Shown here one piece after another: positions 1 to 5,601 of a DNA stretch of 5,649 nt. Each line of letters starts with the position of its first letter. Positions within the stretch are counted from its first letter, which is position 1. Where the stretch lies: the NCBI GenBank assembly GCA_021817185.1, contig JAKAVU010000163.1, positions 1 to 5,649 of the forward strand, written 5' to 3'. This DNA is from a bacterium. GTDB taxonomy: Bacteria > Chloroflexota > Dormibacteria > UBA8260 > Bog-877. The notes under the pieces were generated by a model. The model saw only the letters and a list, made by a program, of their open reading frames with translations. It ran no database searches and was not told where the DNA came from. The position numbers were made by a program, and so were the translations under genes.

Positions 1-118
1 CTTGGCCCAACGGTGTACTATCTCGGCCATGATCAGCCTTAGGGCCGACGATATAGGGAATCGCCATCACCGTCTCGTCGACGGCGGAACAGTCCACCTA
101 GGGCCATGGTCCCGACTG
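1..118 (+). pseudogene. Rhs/YD-repeat core remnant 1 (5' truncated by the window, frameshifted)
   Basis: Frame 1 reads TVYYLGHDQP at codons 4-13, which matches the Rhs-core consensus of the type YYLHHDQLGSTR. A stop follows at once. The match resumes in frame 2 with LVDGGTVHLGPW, in the place where Rhs proteins have a D-x-G-x-VVGTY segment, so one base has been gained or lost near 36-41. In intact Rhs proteins this stretch lies shortly before the junction with the variable toxic C-terminus. No toxin-like reading frame follows between 118 and 295. The remnant cannot be translated as one protein. It is the same part of the core seen at 771-1082 and 3959-4162, which is the best argument that it is not a chance match. 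Confidence 0.6.
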
Positions 119-295
119 GCTAGCGCGAGTAACCATTCAGACTTCCGATACCCAACAAGTCACACGCACTGCTTTGGCTTGCTGCGAACCCGGCGCTGCG
201 CTCCCACGACCGCCCAGCCGGTGTCTGGTGGGGTTTCCGCGCCATCACTGGGGGATCCGTGACGTCCAATAGCCGCAGGTCAGGTGGGCGCTGAC

Positions 296-781
296 ATGGT
301 GGATCGCGAGTCTGGTTACTCGGTGGCCATCCGGGCATTCGCCTACTCGGCACTGGTTGGGGCGGTTATCGTCGTCGCGGCGCTGATTGCTGGGCTAATC
401 AGGGCGATTCCCGTCGGCGCGGCGTTGGGATTGGGGGCAGCGGGCCTTCTGCTGGCTACGGTGTGCCTGCGAGAGGTGCGCCGCGCAGTTCTGCTGCGGC
501 GGAACGAGCGCCAGCGGGTGAGCAGTCCCACGGGGGGATCTGGAGGGCTGCCTGTGACCGGTCAGAGTACCGGCACTTCGCACATTGGACGGTCCCTGAA
601 TGTCACCGCCATTGGGGGGGCGCTCCTCTGTGCTGCGTTAGTCACAGGTTTGGCAAGGTTCCTTCCCACCGGCGTGGCCGCGGTGCTTGGGGGAGGGGGA
701 TTCGTACTGTGGCTCGTGGGAGCGCGGGGGCTCATTCAAGCAAGGCGCCGGAGAGAGAGGCAGGGGACGGATGACGCGTGA
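296..781 (+). CDS. Four-helix membrane protein made of two hairpin repeats
   Basis: This gene encodes 161 residues. The ATG at 296 is preferred over the in-frame GTG at 284 because AGGTGG at 282-287 lies 8 bases before it. Hydrophobic segments fall at about residues 13-36, 40-58, 103-121 and 124-143. They are joined by an Arg-rich loop and a Gly/Ser/Thr linker (about 77-100). The two halves are repeats: AALIAGLIRAIPVGAALG (from residue 28) aligns with AALVTGLARFLPTGVAAV (from residue 113), and each half ends in an Arg-rich tail finishing ERQ. Positive loops suggest both tails are cytoplasmic. I do not recognise the family. It lies between two Rhs-core remnants, in the position expected for an immunity gene of an Rhs cassette, but that role is inference. 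Its stop is overlapped by the next ORF. Confidence 0.75.
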   Translation: MVDRESGYSVAIRAFAYSALVGAVIVVAALIAGLIRAIPVGAALGLGAAGLLLATVCLREVRRAVLLRRNERQRVSSPTGGSGGLPVTGQSTGTSHIGRSLNVTAIGGALLCAALVTGLARFLPTGVAAVLGGGGFVLWLVGARGLIQARRRRERQGTDDA

Positions 782-1082
782 CCAAGTGTGGGGAAGGGCG
801 CGGCTGTGCCGCCACGTGGTCAAGATCGCGCGATCATCAGCGGAAACATGGACGGCGGGTAGGGATGCTTGGCCATCGGACGATCATAATCCACTTTCAG
901 ACTATATGCGAGCTACTTCGCGTGCGAGGCACTACGTGTCCGGCCCTGAGAGGGTGCCGATAGAGCAGGTGCCATGGCCCGGCAGCCCGGGCTACCTCGC
1001 CCTGGACGAGTCGCCCTGGGCACGCCCTTGTTTGCCTCGGCTTGTCATGTGTGTGCCTGTGCCAGGATCAGGCTCGGCGTGA
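771..1082 (+). pseudogene. Rhs/YD-repeat core remnant 2 in a 103-codon open frame
   Basis: The frame stays open from ATG 771, which overlaps the upstream gene by 11 bases and has AGGGG just before it, to TGA at 1080-1082. Its second half reads HYVSGPERVPIEQVP from base 930, then GYLALDE and SPWAR. This follows the Rhs-core order YVYGP-x-G-x-P-x-EQV, then YLHHDQLGSTR, with small losses. At DNA level 931-1000 resembles 4005-4070, with blocks such as actacgtgt and agagcaggtgcc in common. The preceding codons TWTAGRDAWP (about 846-875) may be the decayed W-D segment of the core. The end is not Rhs-like, and no toxin domain is visible. Whether the open frame is translated is unclear; I regard it as a decayed fragment rather than a working protein. 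Confidence 0.55.
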
Positions 1083-1189
1083 AGTGGGGCTGTGTACAGA
1101 AGACCGGTAGCAGCGTGTACAAGCACGATCCGAGAGCGCCCAGAGTCGGGGCCAGCAGAATTGGCCAGAGGTTCGAATCCGAGCTTTGC

Positions 1190-1210
1190 AACAACCCCAC
1201 CAGGGTTGTT
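1190..1210 (-). terminator. Perfect 8-bp hairpin after the minus-strand operon
   Basis: AACAACCC at 1190-1197 pairs fully with GGGTTGTT at 1203-1210 around a 5-base loop. It lies about 40 bases beyond the stop of the minus-strand gene ending at 1251, where a terminator is expected. Neither strand has a run of T after the stem, so it is not a classical intrinsic terminator. It could be a transcript-end hairpin or a two-way stop between convergent transcripts. Apart from this hairpin and a tRNA T-arm-like string at 1170-1180, I see nothing in 1083-1250. Confidence 0.35.
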
Positions 1211-1250
1211 ACAAGGAGAGTCATTCAGCACCGGTGCTGGACGCGGGCTA

Positions 1251-1859
1251 TCACGGCCAGACGGACGCGGCGAGCGCTCCTATCAGCAAGACCGCGCAGA
1301 AGGCGCCGCCGAACTTCAGAAAGCGTAGCAGCCACCGTCTTGCGGCTTGTCGTGCCGCTTCGACCAAAGGATCAGGGTCTGGCTTGCGGGAAAAGAGGCG
1401 CACAAAGATCTCGACTTGAGCAGTCGGGTCGAAGGTGAAAGTCCAGACGCCTGGCAGCCCATCTCGAGTCTTGATTAGGGCGCGCCAGCGAAGATACGGC
1501 GAGAAGCTGGCGAACATACTTACAACCCCGCCAATCCAACACATCAGGCCGATCGTCGCGACCGAATAGAGGAAGGCGGCCGGAGCATGCGAAGGGCGCG
1601 ATGTCGTAGCGCCACCTACCAGCCCAGGGCCAGCCAGAAGCGTCGATGAAACGGACCAGAGTCCAATCCCGACGCCGGCCAGGCCAAAGCTCACCTGCGC
1701 CCATCTGGGTATCTGCGGTGGCATACGCCACGACTTGGGAAGGTAGTTGAAGATGTGCATTACACCACCAATCGCCATCCAAGCACCCATTGCGATGACA
1801 AACCACCCACTTCCCGTCAAGGACCCATCAGGATTCTTCAGGATCAGGCCAGCGATCAT
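1251..1859 (-). CDS. Four-TM membrane protein, function unknown
   Basis: The product is 202 residues with hydrophobic segments at about 17-38, 55-76, 95-118 and 180-200. A soluble segment of about 60 residues (119-179) separates the third and fourth helices. It contains a short hydrophilic part (TRDGLPGVWTFTFDPTAQVE) and an Arg/Pro-rich part before the last helix. ATG 1859 has AGGA four bases upstream and overlaps the stop of the upstream gene by four bases (ATGA), so the two are cotranscribed and probably translationally coupled. I do not recognise a family or catalytic residues. The strand is opposite to the surrounding array, which suggests a separate insertion into it. A membrane-complex partner of the 91-residue neighbour, or an immunity-type protein, are both possible; neither can be shown from sequence. 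Confidence 0.75.
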   Translation of the reverse strand: MIAGLILKNPDGSLTGSGWFVIAMGAWMAIGGVMHIFNYLPKSWRMPPQIPRWAQVSFGLAGVGIGLWSVSSTLLAGPGLVGGATTSRPSHAPAAFLYSVATIGLMCWIGGVVSMFASFSPYLRWRALIKTRDGLPGVWTFTFDPTAQVEIFVRLFSRKPDPDPLVEAARQAARRWLLRFLKFGGAFCAVLLIGALAASVWP

Positions 1860-2131
1860 GGTTTCCTGCTACGAGACCCTCCATGGCTCCGGTACTCCAG
1901 GGGATCACTGCCTCCTAGCCGCTTTTGTTCTCCGCGCCTCATCATGCCGGGCAGAGACCACGCAAAGAGAAGATTCACTGCTGAGTACGCCACCACGATG
2001 CCCGCCAGGAGCGGCAGCGGCAGATGGATCATCAGGAGCGCGACAACTCCGACTACGTCTTCTGCCACCATACATGATAAGACCAAGATCTGAGCTCGCC
2101 GGACCCGAGAGTCAAGACTTGACCTAATCAT
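1856..2131 (-). CDS. Small two-TM membrane protein, first gene of the minus-strand pair
   Basis: The product is 91 residues. A basic N-terminus (SRVRR) is followed by two hydrophobic segments at about 14-36 and 40-60, then a hydrophilic Arg/Gly/Ser-rich tail of 30 residues (MMRRGEQKR onwards). The charges suggest both ends are cytoplasmic. No convincing Shine-Dalgarno lies before ATG 2131. Instead a TATTAT box ends 8 bases before it, so the message may be leaderless. Its stop overlaps the start of the 202-residue gene. The product resembles no family I can name. The tight pairing with a second membrane protein suggests that the two work together. Confidence 0.65.
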   Translation of the reverse strand: MIRSSLDSRVRRAQILVLSCMVAEDVVGVVALLMIHLPLPLLAGIVVAYSAVNLLFAWSLPGMMRRGEQKRLGGSDPLEYRSHGGSRSRKP

Positions 2132-2145
2132 GGCCCGCCATAATA
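2132..2145 (-). promoter_or_regulatory. Candidate -10 box for a leaderless minus-strand transcript
   Basis: On the minus strand TATTAT (plus-strand 2140-2145) fits TANNNT and is followed by 8 bases and then ATG 2131. That is the spacing of actinobacterial leaderless promoters. No good -35 hexamer is visible. The box sits in the loop between GCCCGCC at 2133-2139 and GGCGGGC at 2154-2160, an inverted repeat that could be a repressor site. Confidence 0.4.
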
Positions 2146-2187
2146 CAGCGGCAGGCGGGCGGCCTATCTCCAGATGCGCCGTGTCGT

Positions 2188-2231
2188 GTCGGGCTTCGAC
2201 CGCGGAGCCCGACGCGATCCCTGGCGTCGGG
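2188..2231. repeat. Overlapping, mutually exclusive stem-loops
   Basis: GTCGGGCT at 2188-2195 pairs perfectly with AGCCCGAC at 2206-2213 (10-base loop). CCCGACGC at 2208-2215 pairs perfectly with GCGTCGGG at 2224-2231 (8-base loop). The two stems share 2208-2213, so only one can form at a time. The site lies between divergent genes, about 57 bases upstream of the minus-strand start and about 205 bases upstream of the first plus-strand ORF. It could be a switching leader or a set of protein-binding half-sites (GTCGGG repeated). Confidence 0.45.
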
Positions 2232-2389
2232 AGAGGTCAGCGGGCTCAGGTCCCCGATCAATGCCTCCTAAGTGTCCCCCTCTCAGTAATTCACGTATCT
2301 GGGAAACGGAATCCCCTCAGGAGCATCGAGGCGCCGTCAGGATCTCTCACCGGTTCGGCCCCGGACTCCACGCCCCTCGCCCCTCTCAT

Positions 2390-2418
2390 TTGACAAGCCT
2401 CCCCTGATGGGGCACGAT
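2390..2418 (+). promoter_or_regulatory. Candidate promoter for the plus-strand array
   Basis: A perfect TTGACA at 2390-2395 is followed after 17 bases by CACGAT at 2413-2418, which matches TATAAT at only three positions. The spacer holds a small CCCC-TGAT-GGGG palindrome. The position just before the first ORF of the array (2436) is right, but the weak -10 and very short leader keep this tentative. I see no gene in 2132-2435. Confidence 0.3.
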
Positions 2419-2435
2419 TGCGAGCGAGGCTAAAC

Positions 2436-2549
2436 ATGGAAGCTCACAGTGTAGGCGGAGACCAGAAGTCTACAGTTCGGGGACACAGCATGTCGGAGGG
2501 GTGTTGCGCTGGGTACGGGCAGAGCCATGGTGAGGACAAGCAGGCATGA
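2436..2549 (+). CDS. 37-residue small ORF overlapping the first paralogue
   Basis: ATG 2436 has GAGG at 2426-2429, six bases upstream, which is ideal spacing. The frame runs to TGA 2547-2549 and overlaps the next gene's ATG by four bases (ATGA). The product is hydrophilic and rich in Gly, Ser and His, with an adjacent Cys pair (SEGCCAGYG) and no membrane segment. It matches nothing I know. The overlap suggests a leader that couples translation to the next gene, or the tail end of a lost cassette. The SD spacing and the overlap are its only support; 37 codons can stay open by chance. Confidence 0.35.
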   Translation: MEAHSVGGDQKSTVRGHSMSEGCCAGYGQSHGEDKQA

Positions 2550-2803
2550 CCAAACGCGACCAGATCGCCGCCTTGGTCGGCGAAGAGGCCACCGGGTTGG
2601 CCTACCGAGGCAACGCTCGGCTGTTGCGTGGTGCATTGGCAGTTTTCCCGACGGCGCCCCACCGACGCTTGGCAGCCGAGAGTGAGAAGACAGAGAAGAA
2701 GGCCACTGCGGACCTCCGCAATAAGCAGGGGCTCGACCGAAAGCAGGAGAGTTGGGGGGAGTATCGGCGACAGCACCCCCAAGATCCGGGGCAAGGGGGT
2801 TAG
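2546..2803 (+). CDS. Paralogue lacking its membrane hairpin (LVGEEA family)
   Basis: The product is 85 residues. QIAALVGEEATGLA (residues 6-19) matches the N-terminal motif of the genes at 2806, 3543 and 4159. HRRLAAE and KKATADL match the region just after the second helix of those proteins. The end, YRRQHPQDPGQGG, resembles the YWQEHPEAKAGDG stretch at the end of the next gene. What is missing is the pair of helices: the sequence goes from LLRGALAVFP straight to TAPHRRLA. This is an internal deletion, giving a soluble, highly charged form. Trp70 remains but the AIERAK motif is gone. GAGGA at 2532-2536 precedes ATG 2546. The gene is two bases from the next start. It may be a decayed copy or a soluble relative that interferes with the full-length ones. 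Confidence 0.55.
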   Translation: MTKRDQIAALVGEEATGLAYRGNARLLRGALAVFPTAPHRRLAAESEKTEKKATADLRNKQGLDRKQESWGEYRRQHPQDPGQGG

Positions 2804-2805
2804 CC

Positions 2806-3282
2806 ATGCCCGCTAGTGCCTACAAGACCAGCGCGTGGAACAGCATCAATCGAGAGAAGGTGCGACTGGCCAGAGCTGAACTCGTTCCCCTCATTGGCGA
2901 GGAAGCCTTCAAGTACGCACAACGGCCGGCATGGGTGCTCAAGTTTTCGGTGATTCCGTTTGTTGTTGGGATCTTGTTAGCAATCTGCGTTGGCCTTACG
3001 CACGGTACACTCTCCGTGGCTCTGGGTGCGGTAGACTGGACTCTTGGAGGCATGATGGTTGCTGGAGTAGTGCTCTTCTTCCATTGGGCATTCAAGGCCA
3101 GCCGCCTAGCCAACGCCAAGCTAAGTGCGGACCTTGGGTTCCCAATCAAGGTCCGCGGAGGAGGTGGGGGCATCAACCCGCAGGACTGGGCACGAGCCAT
3201 CGAACGAGCCAAGCAGCGCTACTGGCAGGAGCATCCCGAGGCTAAGGCCGGAGATGGGCGGACGGATGGGTCGGATGGGTAG
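2806..3282 (+). CDS. Two-TM membrane protein of the LIGEEA / W-x-RAIERAK family (copy A)
   Basis: The product is 158 residues. ATG 2806 is chosen because GGGGG lies just upstream and the previous stop ends at 2803; a longer in-frame start at 2752 would run inside the previous gene. ELVPLIGEEA ends at residue 34. Hydrophobic helices lie at about 46-64 and 70-96. LANAKLSADLGFPI (101-114) follows, then a five-Gly run (118-122), then DWARAIERAK (127-136) and a charged tail. Basic residues on both sides place the N- and C-terminal parts in the cytoplasm. The same layout occurs in the genes at 3543 and 4159. I do not recognise the family. Given the Rhs slivers in this array, a membrane immunity protein against an Rhs tip is a reasonable inference, not shown. 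Confidence 0.8.
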   Translation: MPASAYKTSAWNSINREKVRLARAELVPLIGEEAFKYAQRPAWVLKFSVIPFVVGILLAICVGLTHGTLSVALGAVDWTLGGMMVAGVVLFFHWAFKASRLANAKLSADLGFPIKVRGGGGGINPQDWARAIERAKQRYWQEHPEAKAGDGRTDGSDG

Positions 3283-3550
3283 TTGGGCCAGGGCCCACGG
3301 CCCGACGCAGACCGAGCTTGGCACAGAAAGCGGGGCAGCCCGGAGGGTAACGGTCGCGATGGCAGCGAGTGGAGGGCCTTTGCGACCGACTTTGGTCGGC
3401 CCGGCTTCGCCAGTCGTTGAACTCATGGGTTCCTTCGCAGCTCTTGCCAAGAGTCTGTTCTTGCTCCATCGATGGTGGCCACTTGGTTTTGGGAGAAGCC
3501 AGAGGATCAAGGAAAAGCGGGCACCAATGAGGCGGAGGTGCCATGTGTGA
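3254..3550 (+). CDS. Doubtful ORF bridging copies A and B
   Basis: The frame is open from three in-frame ATG codons (3254, 3266, 3275), set in a repeated ATGGG-CGGA string, to TGA 3548-3550. It overlaps the genes on both sides. PTLVGPASPVVELMG in the middle resembles the ADLVGPEAARLAAI motif of the next gene, and a short hydrophobic run (FAALAKSLFLL) follows, but the second helix and the AIERAK end are absent. No good SD precedes any of the starts. It could be a truncated family copy, a coupling ORF, or chance. No other gene is visible in 3283-3542. Confidence 0.28.
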   Translation: MGGRMGRMGSWARAHGPTQTELGTESGAARRVTVAMAASGGPLRPTLVGPASPVVELMGSFAALAKSLFLLHRWWPLGFGRSQRIKEKRAPMRRRCHV

Positions 3551-3962
3551 AGCGTACCGCCGACACCACACTGCTCGGCTCCAGGAGGTGGCAGATCTTG
3601 TGGGGCCAGAAGCGGCTAGATTGGCCGCCATAGCCTACCGCGACCTTCAAGGCGCTGTGGTCGCTGGTGTCGTCTTCGTCGTGTGCGGAATCTGGTTGGA
3701 GAGACGTGGCCCCACGATCCTATCGGTCCCATTGGCTGTAGCGGCCTTGGCGTGGCTCGGCTTCTTTGCTGGGACGGTCGTGATGGGCAGGCGGATGAAC
3801 CGTGCCGCGTCACAGCATGTGAGCGAGGCCTTGGGTCACCCGGTGACTCTGGTGCCAAATCAGTTCGTGCTCCGGCGCTCCTCGTGGGAGAGCGCGATCG
3901 AACGGGCAAAGCGCGCGCATGAACGGCAAGTCGCGGAGAAGCAACAGCGGTGGCACCTATGA
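3543..3962 (+). CDS. Two-TM membrane protein of the LIGEEA / W-x-RAIERAK family (copy B)
   Basis: The product is 139 residues. ATG 3543 follows a strong GGAGGTG at 3534-3540. EVADLVGPEAARLA covers residues 15-28. Helices lie at about 36-52 and 58-82, followed by a basic stretch (GRRMNR). ALGHPVTL (96-103) corresponds to DLGFPIKV in copy A. WESAIERAKRAH (115-126) carries the C-terminal motif, followed by a charged coil-like tail. Overall identity with copies A and C looks low outside the motifs, so the copies are old or fast-diverging. The stop overlaps the ATG of the Rhs sliver by four bases (ATGA), so this membrane gene and a piece of Rhs core lie in one transcript. Function unknown; a candidate immunity protein. 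Confidence 0.8.
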   Translation: MCEAYRRHHTARLQEVADLVGPEAARLAAIAYRDLQGAVVAGVVFVVCGIWLERRGPTILSVPLAVAALAWLGFFAGTVVMGRRMNRAASQHVSEALGHPVTLVPNQFVLRRSSWESAIERAKRAHERQVAEKQQRWHL

Positions 3963-4162
3963 GGGGAGTCATTGGTTGTTGGGTTCCCCTCAGCGGGACC
4001 GTTGACTACGTGTGCGGCCCCGGGGGTCGGCCGACAGAGCAGGTGCCGGGCTCGGGCAGTGCCATCTACCTGTCCCAGGAGCGGTTGGGCTCGCCCCGGC
4101 TGATGACTAACTCCTCGGGAGCGGTGGTGGGCCTACCAAACAGAGGAGCTCTCCTGCCGTGA
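3959..4162 (+). pseudogene. Rhs/YD-repeat core remnant 3, open and coupled at both ends
   Basis: The 67-codon frame contains an unbroken Rhs-core segment: DYVCGPGGRPTEQVPG, then YLSQERLGSPRLMTNSSG, then AVVG. These are the hallmarks YVYGP-x-G-x-P-x-EQV, YLHHDQLGSTRLLTD and G-x-VVG of Rhs proteins. The match stops exactly where TYSYDPYGN would be expected, before the toxin junction. The ORF overlaps the upstream stop (ATGA at 3959-3962) and the downstream start (GTGA at 4159-4162). A real Rhs protein is many hundreds of residues, so this cannot be a functional Rhs. It has no good SD, and translation would depend on coupling. It is the best preserved of the three slivers here. Confidence 0.75.
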
Positions 4163-4551
4163 CCCAGGTATTCAGTTCCCGTTTTCGCTTCCCCGGCCAT
4201 ACGCGAAGAGTCACACGCGAGTTGGAGCCGATCATCGGGCCGAGCGCTGCTCAGCTAAAAGGTATCGCAAGCAGCACGAGGCTTTTGGGTGGTTGCCTAG
4301 TGTTTGCCTGCGTCGGGTTTTCGGGATGGGCCGAGGCAACCGGCGGCGGCATCCCAGGGCTATTTGCGATTCTGTGCGGAGTTATGTTTGCTTGGGTCGC
4401 GGTCGTCGGCACTCGAATTGGACGCAGAGCTGACAAGCTGGCTCACGAGTATGTCAGGGAGCATCTCGGATACGACCTCGAAGGCTACGGGAGTGGCCCA
4501 TCGCCCTCTGGGTGGAACCGTGCCATCGAGCGGGCAAAGCGGAAACACTGA
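4159..4551 (+). CDS. Two-TM membrane protein of the LIGEEA / W-x-RAIERAK family (copy C)
   Basis: The product is 130 residues. GTG 4159 is the start, with GGAG at 4145-4148 ten bases upstream. A short inverted repeat (AGGA at 4144-4147, TCCT at 4152-4155) could mask this site until ribosomes finishing the overlapping Rhs ORF open it. A basic N-terminus precedes ELEPIIGPSAAQLKG (21-35). Helices lie at about 42-58 and 65-87. A basic region and HLGYDLEG (102-109) follow, and WNRAIERAKRKH (119-130) ends the protein at the motif with no tail. It follows the Rhs sliver directly, the order expected for an Rhs cassette whose toxin tip was lost and whose immunity gene was kept. That role is inferred. 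Confidence 0.8.
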   Translation: MTQVFSSRFRFPGHTRRVTRELEPIIGPSAAQLKGIASSTRLLGGCLVFACVGFSGWAEATGGGIPGLFAILCGVMFAWVAVVGTRIGRRADKLAHEYVREHLGYDLEGYGSGPSPSGWNRAIERAKRKH

Positions 4552-4613
4552 CCGGGATTCTAGCCGCTCGTTGGTTTCTGGACTATTTGGGATGGTGGCA
4601 GGATAATTGGGGG

Positions 4614-4855
4614 GTGCCAAGACTGGACCGCCGGGCAGCCTACGCCGAGCAGCCGAGGGCGGTTCAGGCGATTGGGCGCGGTCAACGCGTAGAGGTCGTC
4701 GCCGATGTTCTGGGCGTCGCCCGGCCCTCAGTGTTTGGGTGAGCGCAGGCATCCCGAGGGGGCAGCAACGCCTACTTCTTCACCCAGTCACGGGACCCCG
4801 TTTGACGGTCCAGGTCACGCGGACTACTTGGAAGGGGTCGCCCCACAAGAGCTAG
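4614..4855 (+). pseudogene. IS630-type transposase N-terminal remnant, frameshifted
   Basis: From GTG 4614 the frame reads RAVQAIGRGQR followed by VEVVADVLGVARPSVFG, a helix-turn-helix of the kind that opens IS630/Tc1-mariner transposases. A stop follows at 4740-4742, where such proteins continue with W. Shifting by one base, the text goes on as WVSAG and RGQQRLLLHPVTGPR, which fits the usual W-V-x-x-Y-x-x-x-G-x-x-x-L-x-x-x-P-x-x-G-R-P continuation. The catalytic DDE part is absent. This is the dead 5' end of an insertion sequence. No clear terminal inverted repeats are visible, though GGACTATTTGGGA (4580-4592) and GGACTACTTGGAA (4821-4833) are similar direct copies on either side. Confidence 0.55.
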
Positions 4856-4865
4856 GAGACTTCCC

Positions 4866-5108
4866 ATGATCTGGGGTGGCCACGTAACCACAACTATTCT
4901 CGGGATCGTCGTTGGCCTCGCGGTGGGCGCGTCGTGCACAATCGGCGGTCGGTTGGGGCGACGCGCTGGATTCACATTGGTATCTGGGCCGCGGGATCCA
5001 GAAGCTCGAGATCGATGGATTCGGAGGACAAACCGTGGAGTGGCAGTCCTGATTGGACTTGGCTGGCTAGGAGGCCTGGCCTGTGCGATTCTGATTGCGA
5101 GGGCGTAG
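4866..5108 (+). CDS. 80-residue two-TM membrane protein
   Basis: ATG 4866 has AGGAG at 4854-4858 with a 7-base spacer, the best ribosome site in this part of the window. Hydrophobic segments lie at about residues 8-28 and 56-78. Between them is a basic and acidic loop (GGRLGRRAG, then PRDPEARDRWIRRTNRG). The positive charge sits in the loop, so the loop is probably cytoplasmic and both ends outside, opposite to the other small proteins here. It lacks the LIGEEA and AIERAK motifs. It stands alone between the transposase remnant and the non-coding end. I do not recognise it. Confidence 0.65.
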   Translation: MIWGGHVTTTILGIVVGLAVGASCTIGGRLGRRAGFTLVSGPRDPEARDRWIRRTNRGVAVLIGLGWLGGLACAILIARA

Positions 5109-5524
5109 CCTCCAGCTTTCCCGGGGTGGTTCAGCTGATCACCTGGGTTAGGGTCTTCACCAGCTCCGGGAAGCTTGGGCGCCGCAAGTACAAGACCAAG
5201 TTGACCAGCGGCCGTGGGATGGCGAGCCGGATCGCCGGGGCTCGGCTGCGCCGCCGGACGCCAGCGCCGGTTTCCGGAGCGCCACCTCCGATGGCGCTCT
5301 CACCGCCTCCAGCGGTCTGACAACAGCCGGCTGATTCGAGGCCTCCCCCAGCGGTAGGCTTCACTGTGCCCGAATTCAGGCTGAACTCGATCCGAGAGCT
5401 CCGTCGGGCCCGCTTCCGAGCGTGCAAGCTGCCCCGGGACGAGCGTTAGGCTGACTTCAGCCCTCGGTTTTGGCCCTCAGAATTGAGTTCAGGAGCAACT
5501 TTGCAACTCTAGCTGCAACTGTCG
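5109..5524. other. Stretch without a convincing gene
   Basis: Open frames exist on both strands, including 98 codons on minus from 5427, but they are rich in Gly, Arg, Pro and Ser, lack SD sites and show no recognisable domain. Visible structures are the tandem hairpins at 5277-5316 and a short stem GGCTG/CAGCC at 5449-5462 with TTTT eight bases later, too weak to call a terminator. CTGAACTC at 5381-5388 has inverted copies of its core at 5485-5492. Confidence 0.4.
5277..5316. repeat. Two tandem hairpins
   Basis: GAGCGCCA at 5277-5284 pairs perfectly with TGGCGCTC at 5292-5299 around CCTCCGA. Two bases later ACCGC at 5302-5306 pairs with GCGGT at 5312-5316 around CTCCA. On the minus strand the loops read TGGAG and TCGGAGG, so both expose GGAG. 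They lie about 210 bases beyond the 3' end of the tRNA on its own strand. Confidence 0.45.
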
Positions 5525-5601
5525 TGGTGCCCGCACCAGGACTCGAACCTGGAACCTTGGGATTAAGAGTCCCCTGCTCTAACCAATTGAGCCATGCGGG
5601 C
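5525..5601 (-). tRNA. tRNA-Lys (anticodon CTT), CCA encoded
   Basis: On the minus strand the acceptor stem GCCCGCA pairs with TGCGGGC. The D-arm is GCTC/GAGC, the anticodon loop is CTCTTAA (anticodon at plus-strand 5565-5567), and the T-arm is CCAGG-TTCGAGT-CCTGG. The discriminator is A, followed by an encoded CCA (5525-5527). The anticodon decodes AAG, lysine. The outermost pair of the anticodon stem (27-43) is G-A, so that stem has four good pairs. tRNA 3' ends are common integration sites, and all the accessory material lies on the 3' side of this gene. Confidence 0.95.

Follow-up and report, generated by a model that had tools for sequence, protein, structure and literature searches.

What does a row of small membrane-protein genes interspersed with worn pieces of Rhs sequence represent? 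We address this question for a stretch of 5,649 nucleotides (nt) from a member of the Dormibacteria (positions 1 to 5,649 of contig JAKAVU010000163.1, assembly GCA_021817185.1), hereafter the window. An earlier note on this DNA described three slivers of an Rhs core punctuating an array of membrane-protein genes, and read the locus as a toxin-poor graveyard or storehouse of Rhs immunity genes. The Rhs scraps in the window are two, not three. We interpret the window, with a probability of roughly 0.72, as the decayed remains of an Rhs immunity array that has lost its toxins, based on these scraps, the paralogy of four genes (A to D), the immunity-gene position of one relative in genome G123, and low ratios of nonsynonymous to synonymous substitution (dN/dS) for B and C. 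The features that bear on this interpretation are as follows.

1..118, plus strand: claimed sliver 1, unsupported as Rhs (score at chance level)
929..1006, plus strand: sliver 2, decayed Rhs core fragment (DNA profile and repeat of sliver 3)
2546..2803, plus strand: paralogue A, truncated, no hydrophobic segment remaining
2806..3282, plus strand: paralogue B, intact, two hydrophobic segments, candidate Rhs immunity gene
3543..3962, plus strand: paralogue C, intact, two hydrophobic segments, candidate Rhs immunity gene
3994..4131, plus strand: sliver 3, Rhs core fragment of about 46 codons between genes C and D (DNA and protein profiles)
4159..4551, plus strand: paralogue D, intact, two hydrophobic segments, candidate Rhs immunity gene

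Rhs scraps in the window

The window was searched, unfiltered, with a codon-aligned DNA profile built from 10 rhs cores. These come from the class to which the sister genome G001, a Candidatus Dormiibacterota metagenome-assembled genome (MAG), belongs. As a chance control, 200 Markov shuffles of the window were searched, 135 of which yielded a match, with a top score of 6.1 bits. Sliver 3, placed by the earlier note at 3985-4131, is Rhs core: it matches the DNA profile over 3994-4131 (E 2.9e-14, 44.1 bits) and the protein profile at E 2.7e-7, tblastn with a same-class rhs gene (L066) gives 59% identity over 46 residues (E 2e-9), and its DNA is 71% identical to an rhs gene over 3995-4131. Sliver 2 is also Rhs by the DNA profile (929-970, 12.8 bits, E 1e-4, a score reached by 0 of the 200 shuffles), and its positions 931-1006 repeat positions 4005-4080 of sliver 3 with 72% identity over 76 nt; it is decayed, and shorter (929-1006) than the 846-1060 first assigned to it. 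Its translation has no Rhs match in Pfam, NCBIfam, or the protein profile of class Rhs cores. Neither Pfam nor NCBIfam yields an Rhs match for any of the three slivers.

The first 118 nt, by contrast with slivers 2 and 3, are rejected as Rhs. Their best DNA profile match (5-37) scores 1.3 bits (E 0.32), which 30 of the 200 shuffles equal, and the homologous stretch scores 3.2 bits in the syntenic sister-genome contig (L001) and has no match in a second sister-genome copy (L137). Similarity to the Rhs cores of related genomes is confined to slivers 3 and 2. A promoter at sliver 1 (TTGAAC-16-TACTAT in L001) is a thought only, and is absent from the promoter scan list.

Among the peptide strings quoted as common to the slivers, YVCGPGGRPTEQV, YVSGPERVPIEQV, and GAVVG occur in the window; YLHHDQLGSTR does not, the nearest strings being YYLGHDQP, followed by a stop, and YLSQERLGSPR. 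As to whether the window contains any other part of an Rhs protein, the best 14 tblastn matches listed for 24 Rhs proteins all lie at sliver 3. Most of these queries end where their 1.5 kb flank runs out; the longest is L080, which represents one and the same gene as L062. No toxin tip was found joined to a core piece in a search of the window with two known hydrophobic tips, and Rhs homology stops at 4131, 27 nt ahead of D.

The earlier note took the core piece to be a repeat unit, in which case the locus could be a storehouse where the piece serves as a recombination handle that moves cassettes onto a full rhs gene. A Salmonella orphan rhs module recombining onto the main rhs gene appears in portions of two papers (PMC5361080, PMC9484751). 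Rhs cores occur in 32 of the 110 genomes of the class (29 over cut-off) and in 45 of the 101 genomes sampled across the phylum, several of which have at least ten. However, the longest identical run between slivers 2 and 3 is 12 nt, and they are therefore leftovers, not a working recombination handle. Moreover, searches with two known tips found none that could move, and G001, a MAG that may be incomplete, has no Rhs_assc_core match and a single RHS_repeat match, below cut-off. Among the best matches listed, no full-length rhs gene lies in the window or in the 5.8 kb upstream of the matching stretch in L001, a contig that ends beside the array. With the third sliver also at chance level, we give the storehouse almost no credence and retain the interpretation of a decayed immunity array.

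An orphan module with a tip at locus L088 is closer to the appearance of a recombining repeat than are the window slivers, its DNA being 85% identical to that of the rhs gene upstream over 628 columns. Because this homology begins about 350 nt ahead of the sliver-equivalent point, the data do not establish a fixed module edge at the start of the sliver. A fixed 5' edge at DYVYGP was likewise rejected, as the apparent start in L088 is a frame break within longer DNA homology.

The membrane paralogues and their relatives

B, C, and D share 21-32% mutual identity and match the family profile at E 1e-37 or better, the profile having been built with these three included; A, which was left out of it, matches at profile positions 11-56 (E 3.5e-8). 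The interior of A is about 227 nt shorter than that of its counterpart in genome G141 (L081), as judged from the gap between blastn pieces. The paralogy of A to D and the hydrophobic segments in B, C, and D bear out the description of the locus as an array of membrane-protein genes. No known family accounts for them: the window open reading frames (ORFs) gave nothing over the curated cut-off or better than E 0.002 in Pfam, NCBIfam, or PADLOC, DUF308 excepted, and a protein profile search (7994 candidates scored) gave 31 relatives, none with a Pfam domain, of which the named ones are "hypothetical" and five come from Dormibacteria. The AlphaFold model of C consists of four helices (predicted local distance difference test score, pLDDT, 81) and matches nothing at E <= 0.001 in a fold search of the PDB library; a PDB sequence search with A3 gave no match.

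The family is present in 9 of the 110 genomes of the class, at 11 loci by our own count, and genome G429 contains a partial match (E 7e-4). In G123, the C-terminal frame of an rhs gene ends in a stop, and a family member starts 16 nt past it, which is the position of an immunity gene. Besides a core (E 8.6e-22), this rhs gene encodes a Vgb_lyase region, DUF6531, and 13 RHS_repeat stretches. By a rough estimate, in which the mean genome size is assumed to be 2.85 Mb and the slot 200 nt, with 58 core matches, the chance of such an adjacency is about 2e-4 for one among 10 loci. Only at this one of the 11 loci does a family gene lie immediately 3' of an rhs toxin tip, and the window genes do not. 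In G141, a small membrane ORF comes after paralogues A and B, and then an RHS_repeat scrap (E 1.9e-5, over the Pfam cut-off). The G123 tip, read only past an assembly gap, is hydrophobic. An orphan tip in genome G129 is related to it (E 4e-9 when the two sequences are compared directly, 8e-6 in tblastn across the fetched loci); these are the only two tips of the kind found in the 110 genomes. In addition, dN/dS is low for B and C (B versus L081, 0.27; C versus L087, 0.16; B versus L084, 0.20). The graveyard part of the earlier note fits the two Rhs scraps, the lack of any toxin found, the paralogues, and the G123 position.

Several observations weigh against this interpretation. Rhs adjoins only 3 of the 11 family loci, one of which is the starting locus. 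The G123 tip frame is split from the core frame by a two-N assembly gap, such that the pair is not seen intact, and no family member lies behind the related tip in G129. Neither of these hydrophobic tips matches the window, in a search that was made for these two and not for other tip types. A glycine-zipper toxin was rejected, the motif count in the two tips being reached by 818 of 1000 and 403 of 1000 shuffles. The dN/dS values for the C/L087 and B/L084 pairs are rough, with dS > 2.5 and near saturation; the A pair (L081 versus L087) yielded no value; and ORF 299 versus L001 gave 0.59.

Alternatively, the membrane paralogues could form a family of unrelated function, with the Rhs scraps brought nearby by accidental rearrangement. 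This would agree with the absence of any credible match to a known family or fold and with the other 8 of the 11 loci, where nothing in the examined stretches is convincingly Rhs (L111 and L113, with up to 1.5 kb flanks, were searched in place of L114 and L115, which are the same places). We discarded as spurious the matches at 22-26% identity in L083 (E 1e-5 at best) and L084 (E 1e-4 at best), which came from tblastn with composition correction and filtering switched off. The G123 member directly behind an rhs gene, with its low estimated probability by chance, and the additional Rhs scrap at G141 argue otherwise, and we consider an unrelated function unlikely.

If the window is a decayed immunity array, new toxin tips would presumably have displaced older ones, as in enterobacterial rhs loci, to form rows of core-tip-immunity modules. 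Later deletions would have taken the tips and most of the core and left the immunity genes, so that the remainder is a truncated A, the intact genes B, C, and D for small two-segment proteins, and two worn Rhs scraps. The B, C, and D proteins most likely reside in the cytoplasmic membrane, where they would block Rhs tips that are hydrophobic and act on membranes, as that of G123 would; we infer membrane action of the toxin because the G123 tip is hydrophobic and its partner is a membrane protein. Protection may be the reason for which the genes are retained.

Compatible with this decay, sliver 3 may have been kept as a short leader frame, by which translation of D is coupled to that of C. Its frame is open over 3950-4162, and its stop is overlapped by 4 nt by the GTG start of D (4159). 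However, AGGAG at 4144-4148 is a plausible ribosome site for D itself, L001 is identical there and provides no test of constraint, and past sliver 2 the next plus-strand family gene is about 1.5 kb off, which makes a leader function very unlikely. A broader proposal, in which the lineage gave up its Rhs weapons, keeps an unnamed two-segment immunity family as a stand-alone defence, and reuses a toxin scrap as a translation-coupling leader, is speculative and improbable.

Neighbouring genes and the sister genome

The window contains additional features outside the A to D family.

284..781, plus strand: membrane ORF, four hydrophobic segments
1084..1220, no strand assigned: interspersed element 3' of sliver 2; palindrome around CACCA
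1251..1859, minus strand: membrane ORF, weak similarity to DUF308 (E 9e-4, below cut-off)
1856..2131, minus strand: small ORF, one hydrophobic segment
5525-5601: tRNA-Lys

Homologues of ORF 284-781 lie at three sites of the sister genome, and each of two further genomes has one; no Rhs lies beside those two, nor beside the homologue of ORF 1251-1859 in genome G018. These ORFs were rejected as extra Rhs immunity genes, as no Rhs adjoins their homologues L130, L131, and L135. At L087 (G001:C29), two family members flank a stretch related to ORF 284-781, and no Rhs scraps were found there.

The interspersed element is about 120 bp long and ends in a palindrome, which in the window is TTTGCAACAACCC-CACCA-GGGTTGTTACAAGG. 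Its 21-base core (<=2 mismatches) has 13 matches in 9 of the 110 genomes, versus 3 for a reversed control. Four copies abut sequence that matches the last 20-32 residues of a serine recombinase, with the whole gene only at the L122 locus, and the element may be a serine-recombinase attachment site. It was rejected as an Rhs-linked repeat: of the 13 copies (L116-L128), only L122, at the G141 locus, has adjoining Rhs protein matches.

Positions 1-4907 of the window are 97.3% identical to L001, with 89-90% identity at 1-781, 98-100% at 1061-4551, and 95% at 4552-4907; there are zero mismatches over 2806-4158. The sister-genome contig ends shortly after the array. A second sister-genome copy (L137, G001:C250, 1854-2997) fuses window 1-797 to 1737-2090, lacks sliver 2 and the interspersed element, and is 92-93% identical to the window; over 1-781 it is closer to the window than is the syntenic L001 copy. 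Window 5285-5529 is a repeated stretch with copies in L001 (1065-1169, 2867-3107) and L137 (30-134). A plasmid link of the window was rejected, because the best-matching place in each of five plasmid records is the tRNA. Among the viral contigs searched for the sliver 3 ORF, none carries one.

Elsewhere in the phylum, G065, G012, G077, G081, and other genomes have 10 to 27 Rhs core matches, many of them in short clustered frames, and these are possible long orphan arrays. In the rhs genes at L089 (4418-5959) and L099 (5083-5979), the core profile is split at about position 56/67 by approximately 1.3 and 0.6 kb, respectively, perhaps by extra domains.

Comparison with known systems

The window is ordinary in principle, and a useful pointer to a candidate Rhs immunity family that has no Pfam or NCBIfam name. 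It would represent a case in which immunity genes seem to outlast their toxins until core scraps alone mark their origin, and such scraps could aid recognition of orphan immunity genes in toxin-free genomes. A literature search for Dormibacterota together with Rhs, under this one spelling, found no paper.

The comparisons that follow are to portions of the cited papers. Displacement of rhs C-terminal tips leaves core fragments beside variable genes (Jackson et al. 2009, PMC2935791), and core fragments lie beside variable genes in those loci and in the window alike. In contrast, the cores described there are identical within a locus, while those of the window are short and 72% alike, with no tip found. 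Orphan modules of contact-dependent growth inhibition (CDI) systems and of Rhs have also been described (PMC3150448). In Vibrio cholerae, orphan immunity arrays of the type VI secretion system (T6SS) arise by effector displacement (Kirchberger et al. 2017, PMC5361080), and immunity genes would outlast displaced effectors in both cases; those arrays are in the 3' region of T6SS clusters that still have a current effector, whereas none was seen in the window. Immunity proteins against CDI ionophores are predicted two-helix membrane hairpins (PMC11630599), similarly small and with about 30% identity within the group, although they are shorter (72-100 residues) and belong to another delivery system; the likeness is one of size and predicted topology.

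Closest in layout are the tsaI clusters of Staphylococcus aureus, in which a tspA fragment fills the gap between tsaI10 and tsaI11 (PMC9484751). Both consist of a row of paralogous membrane immunity genes, in our case candidates, with a toxin-gene fragment in one gap. The tsaI clusters involve a type VII secretion system toxin, DUF443 proteins with five predicted segments, and a full tspA at the locus, whereas the window involves Rhs, proteins with two segments, and no full toxin gene. The kind of system is already known. Judged from family libraries and literature searches, what looks new is the protein family, its host group, and how far the decay has gone.

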